DNA of 35,521 nucleotides from Actinopolymorpha alba DSM 45243. GTDB taxonomy: Bacteria; Actinomycetota; Actinomycetes; Propionibacteriales; Actinopolymorphaceae. Both the position numbers and the translations under genes were made by a program. Under the pieces are notes generated by a model that worked only from the letters and a program-made list of their open reading frames with translations, was not told where the DNA came from and ran no database searches. Positions 18,893-24,662 of this stretch are shown one piece after another (positions within the stretch are counted from its first letter, which is position 1; each line of letters begins with the position of its first letter). The stretch covers positions 30,643 through 66,163 of the forward strand of contig NZ_KB892750.1 of the NCBI RefSeq assembly GCF_000373925.1, read 5' to 3'.

Positions 18893-19351
18893 TCACGATC
18901 CTTGCCGGAGAGTCTCCAGTTCACGAATCGGGAAGGGGATGCCACCCCAAGCCCTTGAATACGCGTCACTGCCCCCACACTGAACCAGCACTTCGCCAGC
19001 CATAAGCACCACGCTGCGAATAAATGTTCTGACGCCAACCCGACCGTGCCATCGCAGACTGCCACCGCGCCAGCGGCCGGACTCTGATGCCATATCCGTA
19101 AACTGGACGACCTGCAGGTAAGCCTCTTCGTCGGCGCTTGAAAAGAACAGGCAGGTACCCCCGGGCTCGGCAGGCAGGAAGGCGATTGCCGAGCTCGACC
19201 CCAGTCGCAGGTCAATTGCCGATTGCACTACGGAACCAAGACCATTCCCTATGTATGTGGTGTGTATTTCGATGACCTCTCGTGGAAGGTGTAGAACGAG
19301 GTCGGCTGAGCCGGGCGGATGCATCTTCCAATGCATTGATAATTCATCCAT
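18893..19351 (-). CDS. Hypothetical protein, third gene of the DUF4132 cassette
   Basis: 152 residues, no domain recognised. ATG at 19351 is preferred because AAGG lies eight bases upstream; two further in-frame starts lie just before it. The protein is mixed alpha/beta, with strands such as ADLVLHLPREVIEIHTTYI, AIAFLPAEPGGTCLFFSS and YLQVVQFTDM, without signal peptide or membrane helix. It follows the giant gene by 97 bases on the same strand and could be its operon partner. Its character (small, acidic, beta-rich, unknown) resembles many orphan actinobacterial proteins, so an accessory or immunity-type role is only a guess. Confidence 0.65.
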   Translation of the reverse strand: MDELSMHWKMHPPGSADLVLHLPREVIEIHTTYIGNGLGSVVQSAIDLRLGSSSAIAFLPAEPGGTCLFFSSADEEAYLQVVQFTDMASESGRWRGGSLRWHGRVGVRTFIRSVVLMAGEVLVQCGGSDAYSRAWGGIPFPIRELETLRQGS

Positions 19352-19447
19352 TGCCATCACCTTGGATAGGCGGTACGCGGAGATCCGTTTGGATTAATGA
19401 TCGCCTTTCGTGAGTCCACGATCGACGCCGGCGGGCAACTCTGCGGC

Positions 19448-22400
19448 TCAGCGGACCAGTTGCTCGAGGATCGTTGGGTCTTTGATCTTGTCGTCGCGGG
19501 CAAGTAGTACGACCTTGGCCACGATCTCAGCGGTACGCGGATCGTCGTCTGCGAACGGGAGGAAGATGCGTCCGCGGTGCTGGGCGCTGACTGGCACAAT
19601 GCACACCGCGTTTCCGGGGCTCCGATGTACGACACCTGAGCCGAGGTGGATGGAGTAGGTGCCGAGCGTGCCTTTGATTCTCGCGTGGTGGCCACCGACT
19701 TCGACGTTGCTGAGTCCGAGCAAGGTCGCGGTCTCGTCGACGAGGCGGGTCCGCATCTCGACCGATGACTCGGACACTTCCGGGTCGACGCCGCTGGCGT
19801 GGGCAACGGATACGACCAGATCGAGGTCTCGCATGGCCTCGGAGAAGAGCCGTCGCGGAACGTCCTCGAGTGGCATTGGCTGCCATGAACCGGCTGGGTG
19901 GAAGGTGACATCGGTGATGGTCGCGTCCTCGACGTCGGTGGGCGATCCCCAGCCGTTGAGCAGGTGGCACCAGACGGTCAGCTTTTCCTGGTGGAAGGTT
20001 CGGGAGAAGCCGGTCTCGAAGTCGGCGACCCAGCCGCGGGAGGTGAAGATCCCGCCGGCACGCCGGGCCTCCAGCTGGTGACCGGCGTATCGGCGCGAAC
20101 CGGCGCCGCGTTCGTCGCGCTCGGTGGTGTTCAGAGTGTAGAGCTCACGGAACACCTGCTTAAATGGTTGCGGCCGTTCTCGAGTCATTACGGCGTGCTG
20201 GAAGTCAGGCCATTCACCCGATTCCAGAAGATCGAGTGGGTGCGCGATCCGCAACTCGCCGCGTGCCTGCCGGCCTGTTCCGTCGGGGGCCAGCAGAGTT
20301 CCTGGGCTCTCCGATGACGGGTAGCCGGCGATCCCCTCAACGTCCACGAGGACGACCTCGCGAAGCATTGGAGCCAGGATCGGGTGTTGGAGCAGCCTGG
20401 ATACCTCGTCGACATCGAACGTGTCGCCCAAGACACAGGAAGCCTCAAGCGAGGTGCGCATCCTGCGTGCCTGCTTGCGCAGATCCTTCGCGCGGTCGGC
20501 AATGGCAGCGATCTCGGGGAGCTTGGCGCTCTTGGCTGGAAGGGTCTTCAGCGGCTTCCCGGCTCGCTTGACCTCGATGAGCGGAACGCCGGCGTCATCA
20601 ATTTGGAGGCTCACGACCAAATCGCCGCCTGCCGCGACGACGGGGCCCTCGGCGAGGTCTCGAACCGCAGCTGCCTCCATTGCCCAGATCAGGCGTTGGG
20701 GATCGCGGTAGCCGGCCGTCCGAGCAAGATTCTCGAGTCCGACCTCGACTGCGGTCGATTCTGATGCGCGTCGCTGCGAGCCGGATGTGCGGTCGGACGC
20801 GACGAACCCTCGAAGGGTCTCGTACCGCCGGTAGAGGACTCCGTCGCCTCCTTGGGGTGACAGAGGCAGCAGCCCGACGGCTCGTACGGAGTCCTGATGG
20901 CGCTTGTCCTGGATCCGGGTCATCAGGGAAGGCTCGTCGGCATCGCCGATGAGCGCTGAGGCGAAAAGCTCTGCTCGCTTGTGACCGCCGGCGGAGGAGG
21001 CGTACTTGGCCGCCTTGAGGATTGTGGCGAATCGTTGCGGGCCCAGAGTGGACACGACGTCGCGGTACCACGCCACGTCGGCTGCGCCACGGACCAGGTC
21101 GGTGCTGTCCAGCGGCGTGCGTTGGCTCACCTCGCTGGCCCATTGTGCGCGGATCTCCTGGTCAACGGACCAGCTGTCGTCCTTGGTGTGGGCGTGAACC
21201 CACCATACGGCCGACTCGAGGCCGGTCCAGCCGAGGTGTTCTTCAATCAGCTGGGCCCATTGGGGCGCGTAGACGGCGGTTTCGATGAGGCGCGCGTTGG
21301 TGATGCGAGCTTGCTTGGCGAGACGACCAAGCTCGTCGGCGGTGTCGGATTGGCGTGGTTGGTGGATCCGTACGAGATGGGAGAGCCCGCTCTCGCGTGT
21401 GTCTGTCCACGCGTAGCCGCGGGCGAACGGTCGCTTTCCCAGCGCGGCAAGCACCCTGATGAGGCTGTCGGCTCCGTACGCCGATCGCAGGGCTTTCGAT
21501 GTCTCCGATAGACGGGTAGGAAGGTCGCCTCGATCGGCTTCTTGGGCGATGGCGGCCCGGCGAACCTTCTCCACGATGGTCTGGGTCCGCTCTCGTGCAA
21601 CCCATGACGGCGGATTGAGGGCAGTGAGGGTCCAGACGGCGTCTCGACCGCGGCCCCCGAAGTGGCGGATGTAGGTCGCGCGACGGGGCGCCATGATGAG
21701 ACTGTCGATGAGGTCTGCTTCTGAGGCGATGCCACGTTCGAAGGCCTCGACGATGATGAGCGGTTCTGGTGTCAGACGTTCAGGCTGGTCGGGGACGAGG
21801 ATTCGGCTGTCCTGGACCTGTCCATACGACTGCGTGACCGCGACCTCGAGCATCGGTCCGTGCCACCGGTCGAAGGTTCCCTCCGGTTCGTCCAGGAACC
21901 GTACTGCGCGCCACAGACGTGCAAGTTGGTCGTCGGTGAGGTCGGTGGGATCAACAACGTCCGGTGCGCCGCGGAAGAGCCCTCCGAAGGTCGTGACGCG
22001 GTCGTCGGTTCCGATGATGTTGCCCCAGTCGTCCCGTTCGATCTTGCGTCCGCGCTTGGCCATAATCTCGGGGGCGCCCATGAGTCCGTCTGCCGGCAGC
22101 GCCGCCGCGGCCGTCTCGAGCATGTCCAGAAGCGGACCTGCCCAACTGGGACGCCATTCTCGACGAGCGACATGCCCGATCAGCTGGGCGCGCAACCGGT
22201 TCAGATTATCGGGGCGGTCCCAGTCTCCTATCGGACCCACTACAGCGTTATTCACCCCCCGCACCCATGGCCGATTGCTCGAACCCATCCAGTGGAGGAG
22301 CGCGACCTCGACTCCGCCGTCGGTCAAGTGGCCTTGCGTCCGCTCCCACCACGGGTCGATCAACGACGCCAGGGGCATCGAGCCGTCTGCGGCGTTCGGG

Positions 22401-24265
22401 ATCCAGCGGAGGTTGGCCAGCAACTCCACGCCGCTGTAGGTCTGAACCTCAACGTCTGCATGTTCGTCGAGCCAGGCACCAAGCGACGTCCAGGCCAGGG
22501 CGACGCCCCGGTGGTACTTCTTCCAGACATGCGCCGGCCGTGCCACCGGACGCGCTGCCTGTGTTCGCTCCTCTGGCATGAACCGGACCTCGGCAGGCAC
22601 GTCGTCGGAACTGCCGGACTCGGCCCCCGTGCCCAGCAGACCTTCGAGTTCCCTAGCAGCACGCTGTTGTTCCGGCACACCAGCCGAGAGCCGCCCTATT
22701 GATCCCGCGAGCGAGGCGGCGTCTTGCTTCCGCAGCAATAACAGCGCGGCCGTCCTCAAGTCAGCAGCCTTTCGGGTGAGCATCTTCTCCAGCCCGACCG
22801 CCTCCTCCGAGGTGATGGTGGGAAGTCCCTCGAGAGCGTTGGCGGCCAGCCCACGGACCGTCGAGGATCGGTCGGTGAGAAATGAGAAGAGGACCTTACG
22901 GTTCACATCTGGTTCGCGGGCGTACCGACCTACGGCGATCTGGCGTCCATCTGTGGATGCGGCTTCGACAATGCGGAGATCGACGGCGCGCGCGGGACTG
23001 TATGCGACGATCACGTCGGCAGCCAAAGCCGCGCTCACCTTCTGCGTCCGTGATCCCAAGATTCCGGTCTGTACGTCTTGTTGTCTGCCGAGCTGACCTA
23101 CCCGTCGCTGAAGCTCTTCTCGGACTCTCGGGTGCAGATCCGTGCTCGTCTCCTTGCCCCACACAGACACCGGCCAGGCAGCAACCGCGGCGGCGAACAC
23201 CGGTAGGGATTCGTCCTCCAGGGCCAACGCAAGGTGCTCGCTGGCTTCAGGGAGGGCAAGATCAGTGAGCAGCCGGGCAGCGGCTAGACGATGCCCGCCG
23301 TCAGGGCTGTTGAGGACCCAGGCGGCGACGGCGGCCGCCGCGTTCGCGTCGCGAACCGCGTGCGCCCAGAGGCCGAGGTATGCCGTGGCGGGGTCGGCCT
23401 CGAGGAGTTCTTCGGCCGCGGGCGGGCGCCTGAGGTACATCTGAAGGGTGGCAATGGCTTGGGCGAGCGGTTGCCGGACCTCGAGCTCCTCGCCCAGCCA
23501 CACCCCCATCGCACGCACGGTTCCAGCGAAGCGAACCAGATCGTGCTGGCCGATGACCGCGAGCATGCGTGCGAACGCGTCGGGATGACCCAGGTCGCTG
23601 GCTTCGAGGATCGTCTGTCGCAGGCCCTCGGCTCGCTGCGCACTGACCAGCAGGTCCTCGACTGCTTCCCAACAGTCCGAGCTCGTGCAGGCCAGCAAGG
23701 CGACGAACGCCTGCTGCGACGGCCCGCCGATGGGGTGGCGCCCGCGCACGCTGTCCAAGAGGATCCTCTTGATCTCGGTGTTCCCGGCGTCGACGGCGGC
23801 AGCAAGGAGTCCTCCAAGCGGCACGTAGCTGCCCAGGTACAGCAGCCACGATGCATGCCAGGACAGCGGCTGGGGATACCACGTGCCATGGTTCAGCAGC
23901 TGGACCAGCTCCTCCCAGCGCCCAGCAAGGGAGTCGCGCGGGTTCCCGGAGCGGTAGGCACGACGATCCCAGCCCCGCTGGTACGGCGCGGATCGCGACC
24001 ACTCCCACCAGACCGAGAGGTCGGCGCCCAGCGATGGGCACAAGGCGGAAAGAACCTTCGCGCGCTTCTGGGTCGAAAGGCCATCCAGCTCCGAAGCGAG
24101 GTCGGACCAAGCAAGCCGGCGATCGGCCAGGGCGCCTGCGATCCGCGCTGCGAGCGGAGGCGCGAGCCGCTTCCGCACACAGACCCCGCGCCTTCGTTCG
24201 GCCTCCGGTGCGGCATACTTCCTCAGCTCGAGATCAGCCTGCTCCGCCGACAGCACGTCAGCCAC
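19448..24265 (-). CDS. Giant DUF4132/DUF5724-type repeat protein (MolR/YehI-like)
   Basis: 1605 residues from a GTG at 24265, which overlaps the upstream small gene by eight bases; open frame further upstream is non-coding sequence opposite that gene. Roughly residues 150-600 are alpha-helical and HEAT-like (for example VRGLAANALEGLPTI and AADLRTAALLLLRKQ). The middle contains WVARERTQTIVEKVRRAAIA-type helices. From about residue 1367, FKQVFRELYTLNTTERDE, SRRYAGHQLEARRAGGIF and TSRGWVADFETGF match the DUF4132 core. The C-terminus (GTLGTYSIHLGSGVVHRSPG, RGRIFLPFADDDPRTAEIVA, DPTILEQL) is the strongly conserved ending of DUF5724/DUF4132 proteins. In E. coli, relatives YehI and MolR sit near MoxR ATPase, VWA and SWIM genes, a grouping proposed to be a conflict system; none of those is present here. 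No catalytic motif is obvious. Confidence 0.9.
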   Translation of the reverse strand: MADVLSAEQADLELRKYAAPEAERRRGVCVRKRLAPPLAARIAGALADRRLAWSDLASELDGLSTQKRAKVLSALCPSLGADLSVWWEWSRSAPYQRGWDRRAYRSGNPRDSLAGRWEELVQLLNHGTWYPQPLSWHASWLLYLGSYVPLGGLLAAAVDAGNTEIKRILLDSVRGRHPIGGPSQQAFVALLACTSSDCWEAVEDLLVSAQRAEGLRQTILEASDLGHPDAFARMLAVIGQHDLVRFAGTVRAMGVWLGEELEVRQPLAQAIATLQMYLRRPPAAEELLEADPATAYLGLWAHAVRDANAAAAVAAWVLNSPDGGHRLAAARLLTDLALPEASEHLALALEDESLPVFAAAVAAWPVSVWGKETSTDLHPRVREELQRRVGQLGRQQDVQTGILGSRTQKVSAALAADVIVAYSPARAVDLRIVEAASTDGRQIAVGRYAREPDVNRKVLFSFLTDRSSTVRGLAANALEGLPTITSEEAVGLEKMLTRKAADLRTAALLLLRKQDAASLAGSIGRLSAGVPEQQRAARELEGLLGTGAESGSSDDVPAEVRFMPEERTQAARPVARPAHVWKKYHRGVALAWTSLGAWLDEHADVEVQTYSGVELLANLRWIPNAADGSMPLASLIDPWWERTQGHLTDGGVEVALLHWMGSSNRPWVRGVNNAVVGPIGDWDRPDNLNRLRAQLIGHVARREWRPSWAGPLLDMLETAAAALPADGLMGAPEIMAKRGRKIERDDWGNIIGTDDRVTTFGGLFRGAPDVVDPTDLTDDQLARLWRAVRFLDEPEGTFDRWHGPMLEVAVTQSYGQVQDSRILVPDQPERLTPEPLIIVEAFERGIASEADLIDSLIMAPRRATYIRHFGGRGRDAVWTLTALNPPSWVARERTQTIVEKVRRAAIAQEADRGDLPTRLSETSKALRSAYGADSLIRVLAALGKRPFARGYAWTDTRESGLSHLVRIHQPRQSDTADELGRLAKQARITNARLIETAVYAPQWAQLIEEHLGWTGLESAVWWVHAHTKDDSWSVDQEIRAQWASEVSQRTPLDSTDLVRGAADVAWYRDVVSTLGPQRFATILKAAKYASSAGGHKRAELFASALIGDADEPSLMTRIQDKRHQDSVRAVGLLPLSPQGGDGVLYRRYETLRGFVASDRTSGSQRRASESTAVEVGLENLARTAGYRDPQRLIWAMEAAAVRDLAEGPVVAAGGDLVVSLQIDDAGVPLIEVKRAGKPLKTLPAKSAKLPEIAAIADRAKDLRKQARRMRTSLEASCVLGDTFDVDEVSRLLQHPILAPMLREVVLVDVEGIAGYPSSESPGTLLAPDGTGRQARGELRIAHPLDLLESGEWPDFQHAVMTRERPQPFKQVFRELYTLNTTERDERGAGSRRYAGHQLEARRAGGIFTSRGWVADFETGFSRTFHQEKLTVWCHLLNGWGSPTDVEDATITDVTFHPAGSWQPMPLEDVPRRLFSEAMRDLDLVVSVAHASGVDPEVSESSVEMRTRLVDETATLLGLSNVEVGGHHARIKGTLGTYSIHLGSGVVHRSPGNAVCIVPVSAQHRGRIFLPFADDDPRTAEIVAKVVLLARDDKIKDPTILEQLVR

Positions 24266-24662
24266 CCGCCAAAGCCACGAGCCGCACCAGCCGCAGCCGG
24301 GAGTCGGACTCGATCCGTAGGACCGCGTCGAGATCCTCGACCTGTATGTCATCGAGGAAAACGAAGTAGAGCCCGTCGGTGAACGCCTCGATGGCGCGGA
24401 CCAGCGCCACATCCAGCGGCGGTGCGGCCGGAACCGCGCGTGACTCCCGCCCGAACCGTCCCGTCTCGACGCCGCGAGCCACGTCGCCAGGGGTGAGCAC
24501 CCACAGGGTGCGACTCCTCACCCGCCGCTCCTCATAGCTCGCGAGTTCATGACTCACCAGGACTTCGAGCAGTTGGCGAAGTGTGACCACCTCCTCGACA
24601 ACCGACACCTCTTGGATATCCGGCGACGACGTGTCCCCCAAGATCTTCGTCTGCACAATCAC
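24258..24662 (-). CDS. Small protein ending in Gly-Gly, candidate ubiquitin-like (ThiS/MoaD-type beta-grasp) protein
   Basis: 134 residues from a GTG at 24662. The stop lies inside the start of the giant gene (8-base overlap), so the two are translationally coupled. The N-terminus MIVQTKILGD, then IQEVSVVEEVVTLRQLLEVL, has the strand-strand-helix pattern of ThiS/MoaD proteins, where TLR-LL begins the helix. The C-terminus runs VEDLDAVLRIESDSRLRLVR and ends LVALAGG directly before the stop, like the L-x-DGD-x-V-x-x-x-P-V-x-GG end of MoaD/ThiS and the GG tail of ubiquitin. A middle segment of about 60 residues (including WVLTPGDVARGVETGRF and AIEAFTDGLYFVFLDD) is longer than in standard MoaD. 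The beta-grasp fold is my inference; the Gly-Gly end is directly seen. No E1, E2 or JAB gene is nearby. Confidence 0.7.
   Translation of the reverse strand: MIVQTKILGDTSSPDIQEVSVVEEVVTLRQLLEVLVSHELASYEERRVRSRTLWVLTPGDVARGVETGRFGRESRAVPAAPPLDVALVRAIEAFTDGLYFVFLDDIQVEDLDAVLRIESDSRLRLVRLVALAGG

Follow-up and report, generated by a model that had tools for sequence, protein, structure and literature searches.

A predicted ubiquitin-like protein ending in Gly-Gly and its probable dedicated DUF4132-DUF7737 partner in several bacterial phyla

A locus of Actinopolymorpha alba DSM 45243 raises the question of why a small bacterial protein should end exactly in Gly-Gly (GG) and be encoded in overlap with the gene of a far larger protein. 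The locus lies in the window, the whole stretch of DNA analysed here, which comprises 35,521 nucleotides (nt) of contig NZ_KB892750.1 (positions 30,643 to 66,163). The small protein of 134 amino acids (aa) starts with GTG, ends in LVALAGG and is encoded on the minus strand at 24258..24662; translation, AlphaFold2, Foldseek and its homologues pointed to a ubiquitin-like protein (Ubl) of beta-grasp fold. The adjoining gene (19448..24265, minus strand) encodes a DUF5724-DUF4132-DUF7737 protein of 1605 aa counted from GTG 24265, here called the partner, which was identified with Pfam and by the same gene order in homologous loci. Overall, the two genes very probably represent a module of a GG-tailed Ubl family and a dedicated partner that is widespread across several phyla. 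In addition, the GG tail and one cysteine of DUF7737 were lost together, an observation that is new here.

The Gly-Gly-ended protein and its homologues

A previous reading made from the DNA letters alone (the sequence-only reading) had reported the GG-ended open reading frame (ORF), and this was confirmed by translation, which agreed on 134 residues with LVALAGG directly before the stop. The terminal glycine codons GGT GGC overlap the GTG start of the partner gene (24261..24266, minus strand). The stop codon TGA (24260-24258) falls within the beginning of the 1605-residue gene, as had been claimed, if the partner begins at GTG 24265; a second GTG at 24256 is also possible, and 4 nt lie between the end of GGTGGC and this codon.

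The main contig scan was run with peptide patterns taken from the central part of the small protein, with the tail left out of the queries, and was seeded with the type that has a short partner. It produced 29 loci from Rubrobacter, Micromonospora, Streptomyces, Kribbella and other actinomycetes, Armatimonadota including Capsulimonas, Thermoanaerobaculia, Woeseiaceae and Chitinophagales. Overall, small-protein homologues were found in Actinomycetota, Armatimonadota, Acidobacteriota, Pseudomonadota, Bacteroidota and Deinococcota. Gly-Gly stood immediately before the stop codon in 29/29 loci of the main scan and at the end of 0/209 control ORFs of at least 200 codons with high GC content at the third codon position (from the window and loci L025-L053, ORFs with the family's own tail pattern excluded), so the GG end is beyond chance. 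The overlap of the two genes in the window allows the explanation that GG is a translated GGTGG ribosome-binding site of the downstream gene, and the distance of 4 nt to the second possible GTG would suit it. However, GG was retained where the partner starts 12 nt (L036) or 18 nt (L026) off and where no partner lies directly downstream (L034, L048 and L053), while the glycine and stop codons vary among the loci that keep GG. Because GG persists in these five loci, it appears to be kept for the sake of the protein itself and not as a ribosome-binding site; together with the control ORFs, this leaves the artefact a negligible probability and it was ruled out.

Most members of the Ubl family carry approximately 35 additional residues after helix 1, which are absent in L048 and L051-L053. 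A Ubl that is short of approximately 17 residues ahead of the tail (L028 and L015) nevertheless ends in KLVPLVGG, and its partner frame is broken. A related stand-alone family without terminal GG was found in eight genomes (L016-L019 and L021-L024; loci L057-L060), with tails such as RSVVASGS and RPIVARRG, and none of these genomes had a DUF4132 match. One of these relatives (L057) lies near genes with KaiC and KaiB domains. The sequence-only reading had expected homologues to keep the terminal GG and had regarded its loss as evidence against itself: conservation held in the 29 loci, but one Bacteroidota clade keeps the gene pair without GG and the eight stand-alone relatives also lack it, so such loss was found in part.

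The resemblance to MoaD, ThiS and ubiquitin that had been proposed was favoured by structure prediction and structural search, with weak E-values. AlphaFold2 was given 28 sequences (P0001 and those of 27 of the 29 loci, with L030 and L035 omitted) and produced a model of the small protein with a predicted local distance difference test (pLDDT) score of 77.8 and a predicted template modelling (pTM) score of 0.65, the last four residues having a mean pLDDT of 53. The predicted elements were strands at residues 3-9 and 16-21, a helix at 28-52, two more helices, and strands at 99-103, 106-108, 114-116 and 122-127; this strand-strand-helix-strand-strand order corresponds to a predicted beta-grasp topology. 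The top Foldseek matches in PDB were human MoaD (5mpo), mycobacterial MoaD (6jbz), SUMO, a ubiquitin variant and SUMO complexes, followed by NEDD8 and SAMP1. The target template modelling score was approximately 0.55-0.65 for most Ubl-type matches and 0.47 for SAMP1, with root-mean-square deviations mostly of 8-12 Å, no E-value ≤0.001, and chains of PI3K p110alpha and a few other proteins intermixed. A ubiquitin-like beta-grasp fold is thus supported as a prediction. At the sequence level, no named-family match was found for the window protein in Pfam, NCBIfam or PADLOC, and the sole relevant-family match of 28 family members in Pfam and NCBIfam was ThiS in one member (E 0.15). Alignment of the family with Escherichia coli MoaD by hhalign gave a probability of 1.3% and E 0.041 and covered the last strand and GG only; hhalign gave 0.41 against ThiS and 0.36 against the control MoaC. 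Membership of the MoaD/ThiS family by sequence was not supported by these results. No convincing sequence relatives were found in PDB for the small protein or the partner.

The partner gene and the DUF7737 cysteine

The partner lies directly downstream of the Ubl in 26/29 loci, which bore out the proposed linkage to DUF4132 genes, and its frame is broken in three of them (L028, L044 and L051). In the remaining loci, the Ubl of L034 has no partner in 20 kb and a DUF4132 gene lies elsewhere in the genome, L048 has no partner downstream and a contig edge upstream, and in L053 the partner is nearby on the opposite strand. Profile searches of 396 actinomycetote genomes, drawn evenly from the phylum of the window, identified 10 genomes with a GG-ended Ubl and 8 with a non-GG family member, and the genomes with DUF7737 were the identical 10 with the GG-ended Ubl (identity of the draws being judged by their handles). 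DUF4132 overall was broader than DUF7737, being found in 19/396 genomes, 18 of them over the cut-off. Short DUF4132 proteins (open frames of 290-377 aa) were encoded in six genomes (G119, G203, G257, G289, G300 and G447) that had neither a DUF7737 nor a Ubl match, and DUF7737 is also absent from some longer DUF4132 proteins (G429, 1119 aa). A second genome set showed DUF4132 in 15/15 genomes with a GG-ended Ubl and in 0/8 genomes with a non-GG member. Among 296 Bacteroidota genomes, DUF7737 was found in 9 and the Ubl in 8 of these, the ninth (G711) having a DUF7737 fragment only. Among 200 Pseudomonadota genomes, DUF7737 was found in 3, of which G500 (L040) and G811 (L121) had a GG-ended Ubl and G859 a fragment only. 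When 503 ORFs from 39 loci were compared all against all, every other family was confined to at most 3 of the 21 taxonomic groups. DUF4132-DUF7737 genes were also observed as second or displaced copies at a distance from any Ubl, namely at L026:7054-9558, on the minus strand of L051 and of L083, in L053 and in L119, and each of these encodes the DUF7737 cysteine.

In the window, Pfam placed the best-scoring DUF5724 stretch at 20678..21769 (residues 882-1245 of P0002), DUF4132 at 20030..20560 (residues 1285-1461; E 3.9e-35) and DUF7737 at 19457..19762 (residues 1551-1652; E 1.8e-36), all on the minus strand, with the last two above the cut-off. The partner had been described as giant, which is true of the 1605 aa in the window, but in most of the 29 scanned loci, a scan seeded with the short type, it is approximately 830 aa long. 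Short partners (816-872 aa) have DUF4132 and DUF7737 without DUF5724 (9/9 tested with Pfam), and in the long partners (those of the window, L109 and L113) DUF5724 is present in addition to these two domains. The AlphaFold2 model of the L025 partner (pLDDT 82.2, pTM 0.65) combined an N-terminal half made of helices with a C-terminal part of mixed structure.

The Ubls of the long-partner type (type 2) in Bacteroidota were not GG-ended in 6/6 cases, the tails being LAGSYW in three and LTGTYW, LSGAYW and LSGRLW in the others; in G707 the GG-less Ubl lies approximately 1.2 kb downstream of the partner and not upstream. The partners were then compared at 48 conserved columns, defined as those that were the same in at least 39 of the 40 GG-linked partners. 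The GG-less side comprised seven partners, namely six from Bacteroidota and one from an Acetobacter plasmid, whose locus yielded no Ubl. A cysteine of DUF7737 (residue 802 of the L025 partner, motif YLCIVP; in the window the TGC codon at 19601..19603, minus strand, motif AVCIVPV) was present in 40/40 GG-linked and 0/7 GG-less partners, where it was replaced by Ser in four and by Ala, Asn and Phe in one each. It was the sole conserved column changed in all seven, and the next most altered columns still had the consensus residue in 4/7. Duplicates, fragments, broken frames and Ubl-distant copies (for example the second copy of L026, L028, L051, L053, L065 and L067, as well as L080, L083, L114, L115, L119 and L120) were omitted from this comparison, and all of them carry the cysteine; the fragments L108, L116 and L122 were not interpretable at its position. 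The type-1 Ubls of Bacteroidota (L046 and L105-L107) kept GG, and their partners kept the cysteine. This co-variation suggests that the Ubl tail and the cysteine are in direct contact. The six GG-less Bacteroidota partners formed one clade (support 100/100) within the GG-bearing type-2 group of the tree. The Acetobacter protein (L118:4480-7275; three plasmid records, identical protein) is of DUF4132 type, has Phe in place of the cysteine and is encoded where no Ubl was found close by. In Bacteroides finegoldii (L113:5233-6987), a rhomboid protease gene ends 7 nt ahead of the gene for the GG-less Ubl, and downstream of the partner lies a GAF-domain gene.

The Deinococcus orthologue under stress

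The same pair was found on four Deinococcus plasmid or chromid records, with the Ubl tail LTALAGG in 4/4. In Deinococcus radiodurans the pair corresponds to DR_A0165 and DR_A0166, which resemble the window genes as a two-gene unit, in the LTALAGG end and in a predicted MoaD/SAMP1-like fold. In the portions consulted of the published work on these genes (PMC9650054, PMC8533742), the GG end, the DUF4132 link and the partner cysteine are not discussed. DR_A0165 (SEP068184) was described as a stress-induced peptide, and its predicted structural neighbours in 2022 included 5MPO, 6JBZ, 6JC0 and 2L52 (PMC9650054), so that the MoaD-like fold was already predicted there for the orthologue and not first here. 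The same paper described it as restricted to Deinococcus, a statement contradicted by the homologues in several other phyla, and as having no radiation/desiccation response motif (RDRM). In contrast, PMC8533742 placed an RDRM at -83 of DRA0165 and the drA0165-drA0166 operon under DdrO. The motif is in the sequence: the exact published 20-mer was found 82 nt upstream of the annotated Ubl start of the D. radiodurans record (L109:6919), with near-identical motifs in L110 and L112 and a degenerate one in L111. The window had no match to the RDRM consensus with up to 2 mismatches allowed. The DRA0166 protein increased with mitomycin C in the wild type and not in an irrE mutant, and moeA and moeB were unaltered upon DdrO depletion (PMC8533742). 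These observations tie the Ubl-partner pair to a DNA-damage-controlled operon in Deinococcus.

Deletion of DR_A0165 gave more and overexpression less resistance to H2O2, reciprocal pull-down showed binding to the thioredoxin Trx1, and 157 proteins were common to the co-precipitates of all four tagged baits (PMC9650054). The network in that paper was restricted to proteins recovered with both N- and C-tagged baits, a restriction that would probably drop conjugates dependent on GG. Genes for YeeE/YedE, trxC and modA lie within 7 kb in the D. radiodurans locus (L109); none of these neighbours turned up at the three remaining Deinococcus loci.

Candidate mechanism, rival explanations and neighbouring features

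A conserved module of a beta-grasp Ubl and a dedicated DUF4132-DUF7737 partner, with DUF5724 in the long type, can be stated with high confidence as long as no chemistry is claimed. In the mechanism proposed, the C-terminal Gly-Gly would reach a site of the partner that contains the otherwise invariant DUF7737 cysteine, and the activated GG carboxylate would be transferred to this cysteine, giving a thioester or a similar acyl-sulphur intermediate. On this view the partner would serve the Ubl as its dedicated acceptor or transfer enzyme; a housekeeping E1 of ThiF/MoeB type, encoded at another site in the genome, would activate the tail, and the pathway would end in a conjugate of the Ubl with a protein. 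Covalent acyl-sulphur chemistry between the GG carboxylate and the cysteine is given somewhat less than an even chance, and the thioester, the use of an E1 and conjugation are put forward as hypotheses only; the conjugation or sulphur-carrier role suggested in the sequence-only reading is likewise no more than a candidate. The full reading, a bacterial Ubl transfer system in which a dedicated DUF4132-DUF7737 cysteine enzyme outside the known E1, E2, E3 and protease families attaches the Ubl to targets under stress, and in which one Bacteroidota clade converted the pair to a GG-free and cysteine-free version, is assigned a probability of approximately 0.3.

Several results weigh against the proposed mechanism. 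The six Bacteroidota partners being one clade, the co-loss of GG and cysteine amounts to one event and the single Acetobacter case, in which the partner has a very long branch and an unsure place in the tree and the Ubl search covered the locus only, with the chromosome outside it; the co-loss is specific, but not many times replicated. Since the pair persists in that clade although GG and the cysteine are gone, the chemistry is not indispensable. ThiF was found in 26/26 GG genomes examined and in 4/5 GG-less genomes (absent only in G707), but also in 12/14 control genomes, and because ThiF is so common in bacteria its presence supports little. By coordinates, none of the ThiF matches in these 26 GG and 5 GG-less genomes adjoined the module, and linkage of an E1 to the module was rejected. 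Outside the last strand, hhalign found no sequence similarity to MoaD or ThiS. The C-terminal part of the partner had no recognised fold, the Foldseek matches listed (PDB and viral models) being mostly helical-repeat proteins, none with E ≤0.001 and none giving an enzyme fold for the partner. Finally, C-terminally tagged DR_A0165 still co-precipitated proteins (PMC9650054).

The Bacteroidota clade also provides the argument for a non-covalent association, in which the Ubl would be an obligate subunit or regulator whose tail docks without chemistry, GG and Cys being one fit and G-x-[YL]-W with Ser, Ala or Asn another. In that clade the retained pair has a Ubl tail that is two residues longer and ends in Trp, an altered fit would account for the coordinated change without catalysis, and the missing E1 neighbour and third gene agree with it. 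However, an exact terminal GG in 29/29 loci, including the Ubl alone in L034, and an invariant cysteine are what acyl chemistry would require, and docking would be expected to drift more; the non-covalent reading is considered possible but doubtful. A sulphur carrier would use the same residues differently, the GG thiocarboxylate being formed by a MoeB/MoeZ-type E1 as in MoaD, ThiS and CysO and the partner being a sulphur acceptor or user through its cysteine. MoaD proteins as best structural matches (Foldseek; also PMC9650054), a GG at the very end that calls for no processing, ThiF in all GG genomes examined, and the Trx1 binding and the YeeE/YedE, trxC and modA neighbours of the D. radiodurans gene speak for such a role. 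Against it stand the absence of those neighbours from the three other Deinococcus loci, the lack of a recurring third family and the unaltered moeA and moeB, and this role is judged unlikely. The proposal made for DR_A0165, that the small protein binds and inhibits Trx1 as a redox regulator and the DUF4132 gene is a mere neighbour, draws on the H2O2 phenotypes and the reciprocal pull-down; with trxC a neighbour in one of four Deinococcus loci and the DUF4132-DUF7737 gene the lasting neighbour across phyla, it is very improbable.

Compared with MoaD, ThiS, CysO, SAMP and Urm1, the module Ubl shares the beta-grasp fold, predicted here, and the exactly terminal GG. It differs by having no sequence-level match, a dedicated DUF4132-DUF7737 partner, no adjacent E1 and, in most members, the extra residues after helix 1. 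Bil-type bacterial Ubl conjugation operons contain genes for an E1, an E2 and a deubiquitinase with a small GG-ended Ubl. The module resembles these in its small GG Ubl within an operon, but it has no ThiF/E1 beside it, a large partner without an assigned fold, and no PADLOC match for the window proteins. As for E2 and deubiquitinase genes, the comparison of 39 loci, for which E2 and JAB protease models were not run, found no third family in over 3 of the 21 taxonomic groups, and a rhomboid protease gene precedes the GG-less Ubl of B. finegoldii. The MolR/YehI-type proteins of E. coli share the DUF4132 domain, whereas DUF7737 was not found in the E. coli control genome, YehI ends before the DUF7737 region and the cysteine, and its gene adjoins MoxR and vWA genes and not a Ubl. 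The UFM1 precursor has Val-Gly followed by two residues that are removed; the Bacteroidota tails likewise keep the first Gly with added residues (AG-SYW, SG-AYW), which is an analogy only, and no processing enzyme is known for them. In the open-access literature, prokaryotic ubiquitin-like conjugation systems are mentioned in another context in the part of PMC7159879 consulted; no paper was found that joins DUF4132 with ubiquitin-like proteins and none on DUF5724 or DUF7737, an absence that is weak evidence.

For a multi-phylum family that is nameless in Pfam and NCBIfam, the analysis supplies a partner and a testable site in each of the two proteins, namely the terminal GG and the DUF7737 cysteine. 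It also brings together, as parts of one system, the stress peptide and the DNA-damage-induced DUF4132 protein that had been published for Deinococcus. If the proposed chemistry is real, bacteria would possess a ubiquitin-like pathway that relies on a previously unseen class of enzyme. A 155-aa ORF (18893-19360, minus strand) immediately downstream of the partner gene had no match in Pfam, NCBIfam or PADLOC. A tblastn search for phage relatives of the partner found none, and among the PHROG families the partner matched phrog_20839 with E 6e-14.

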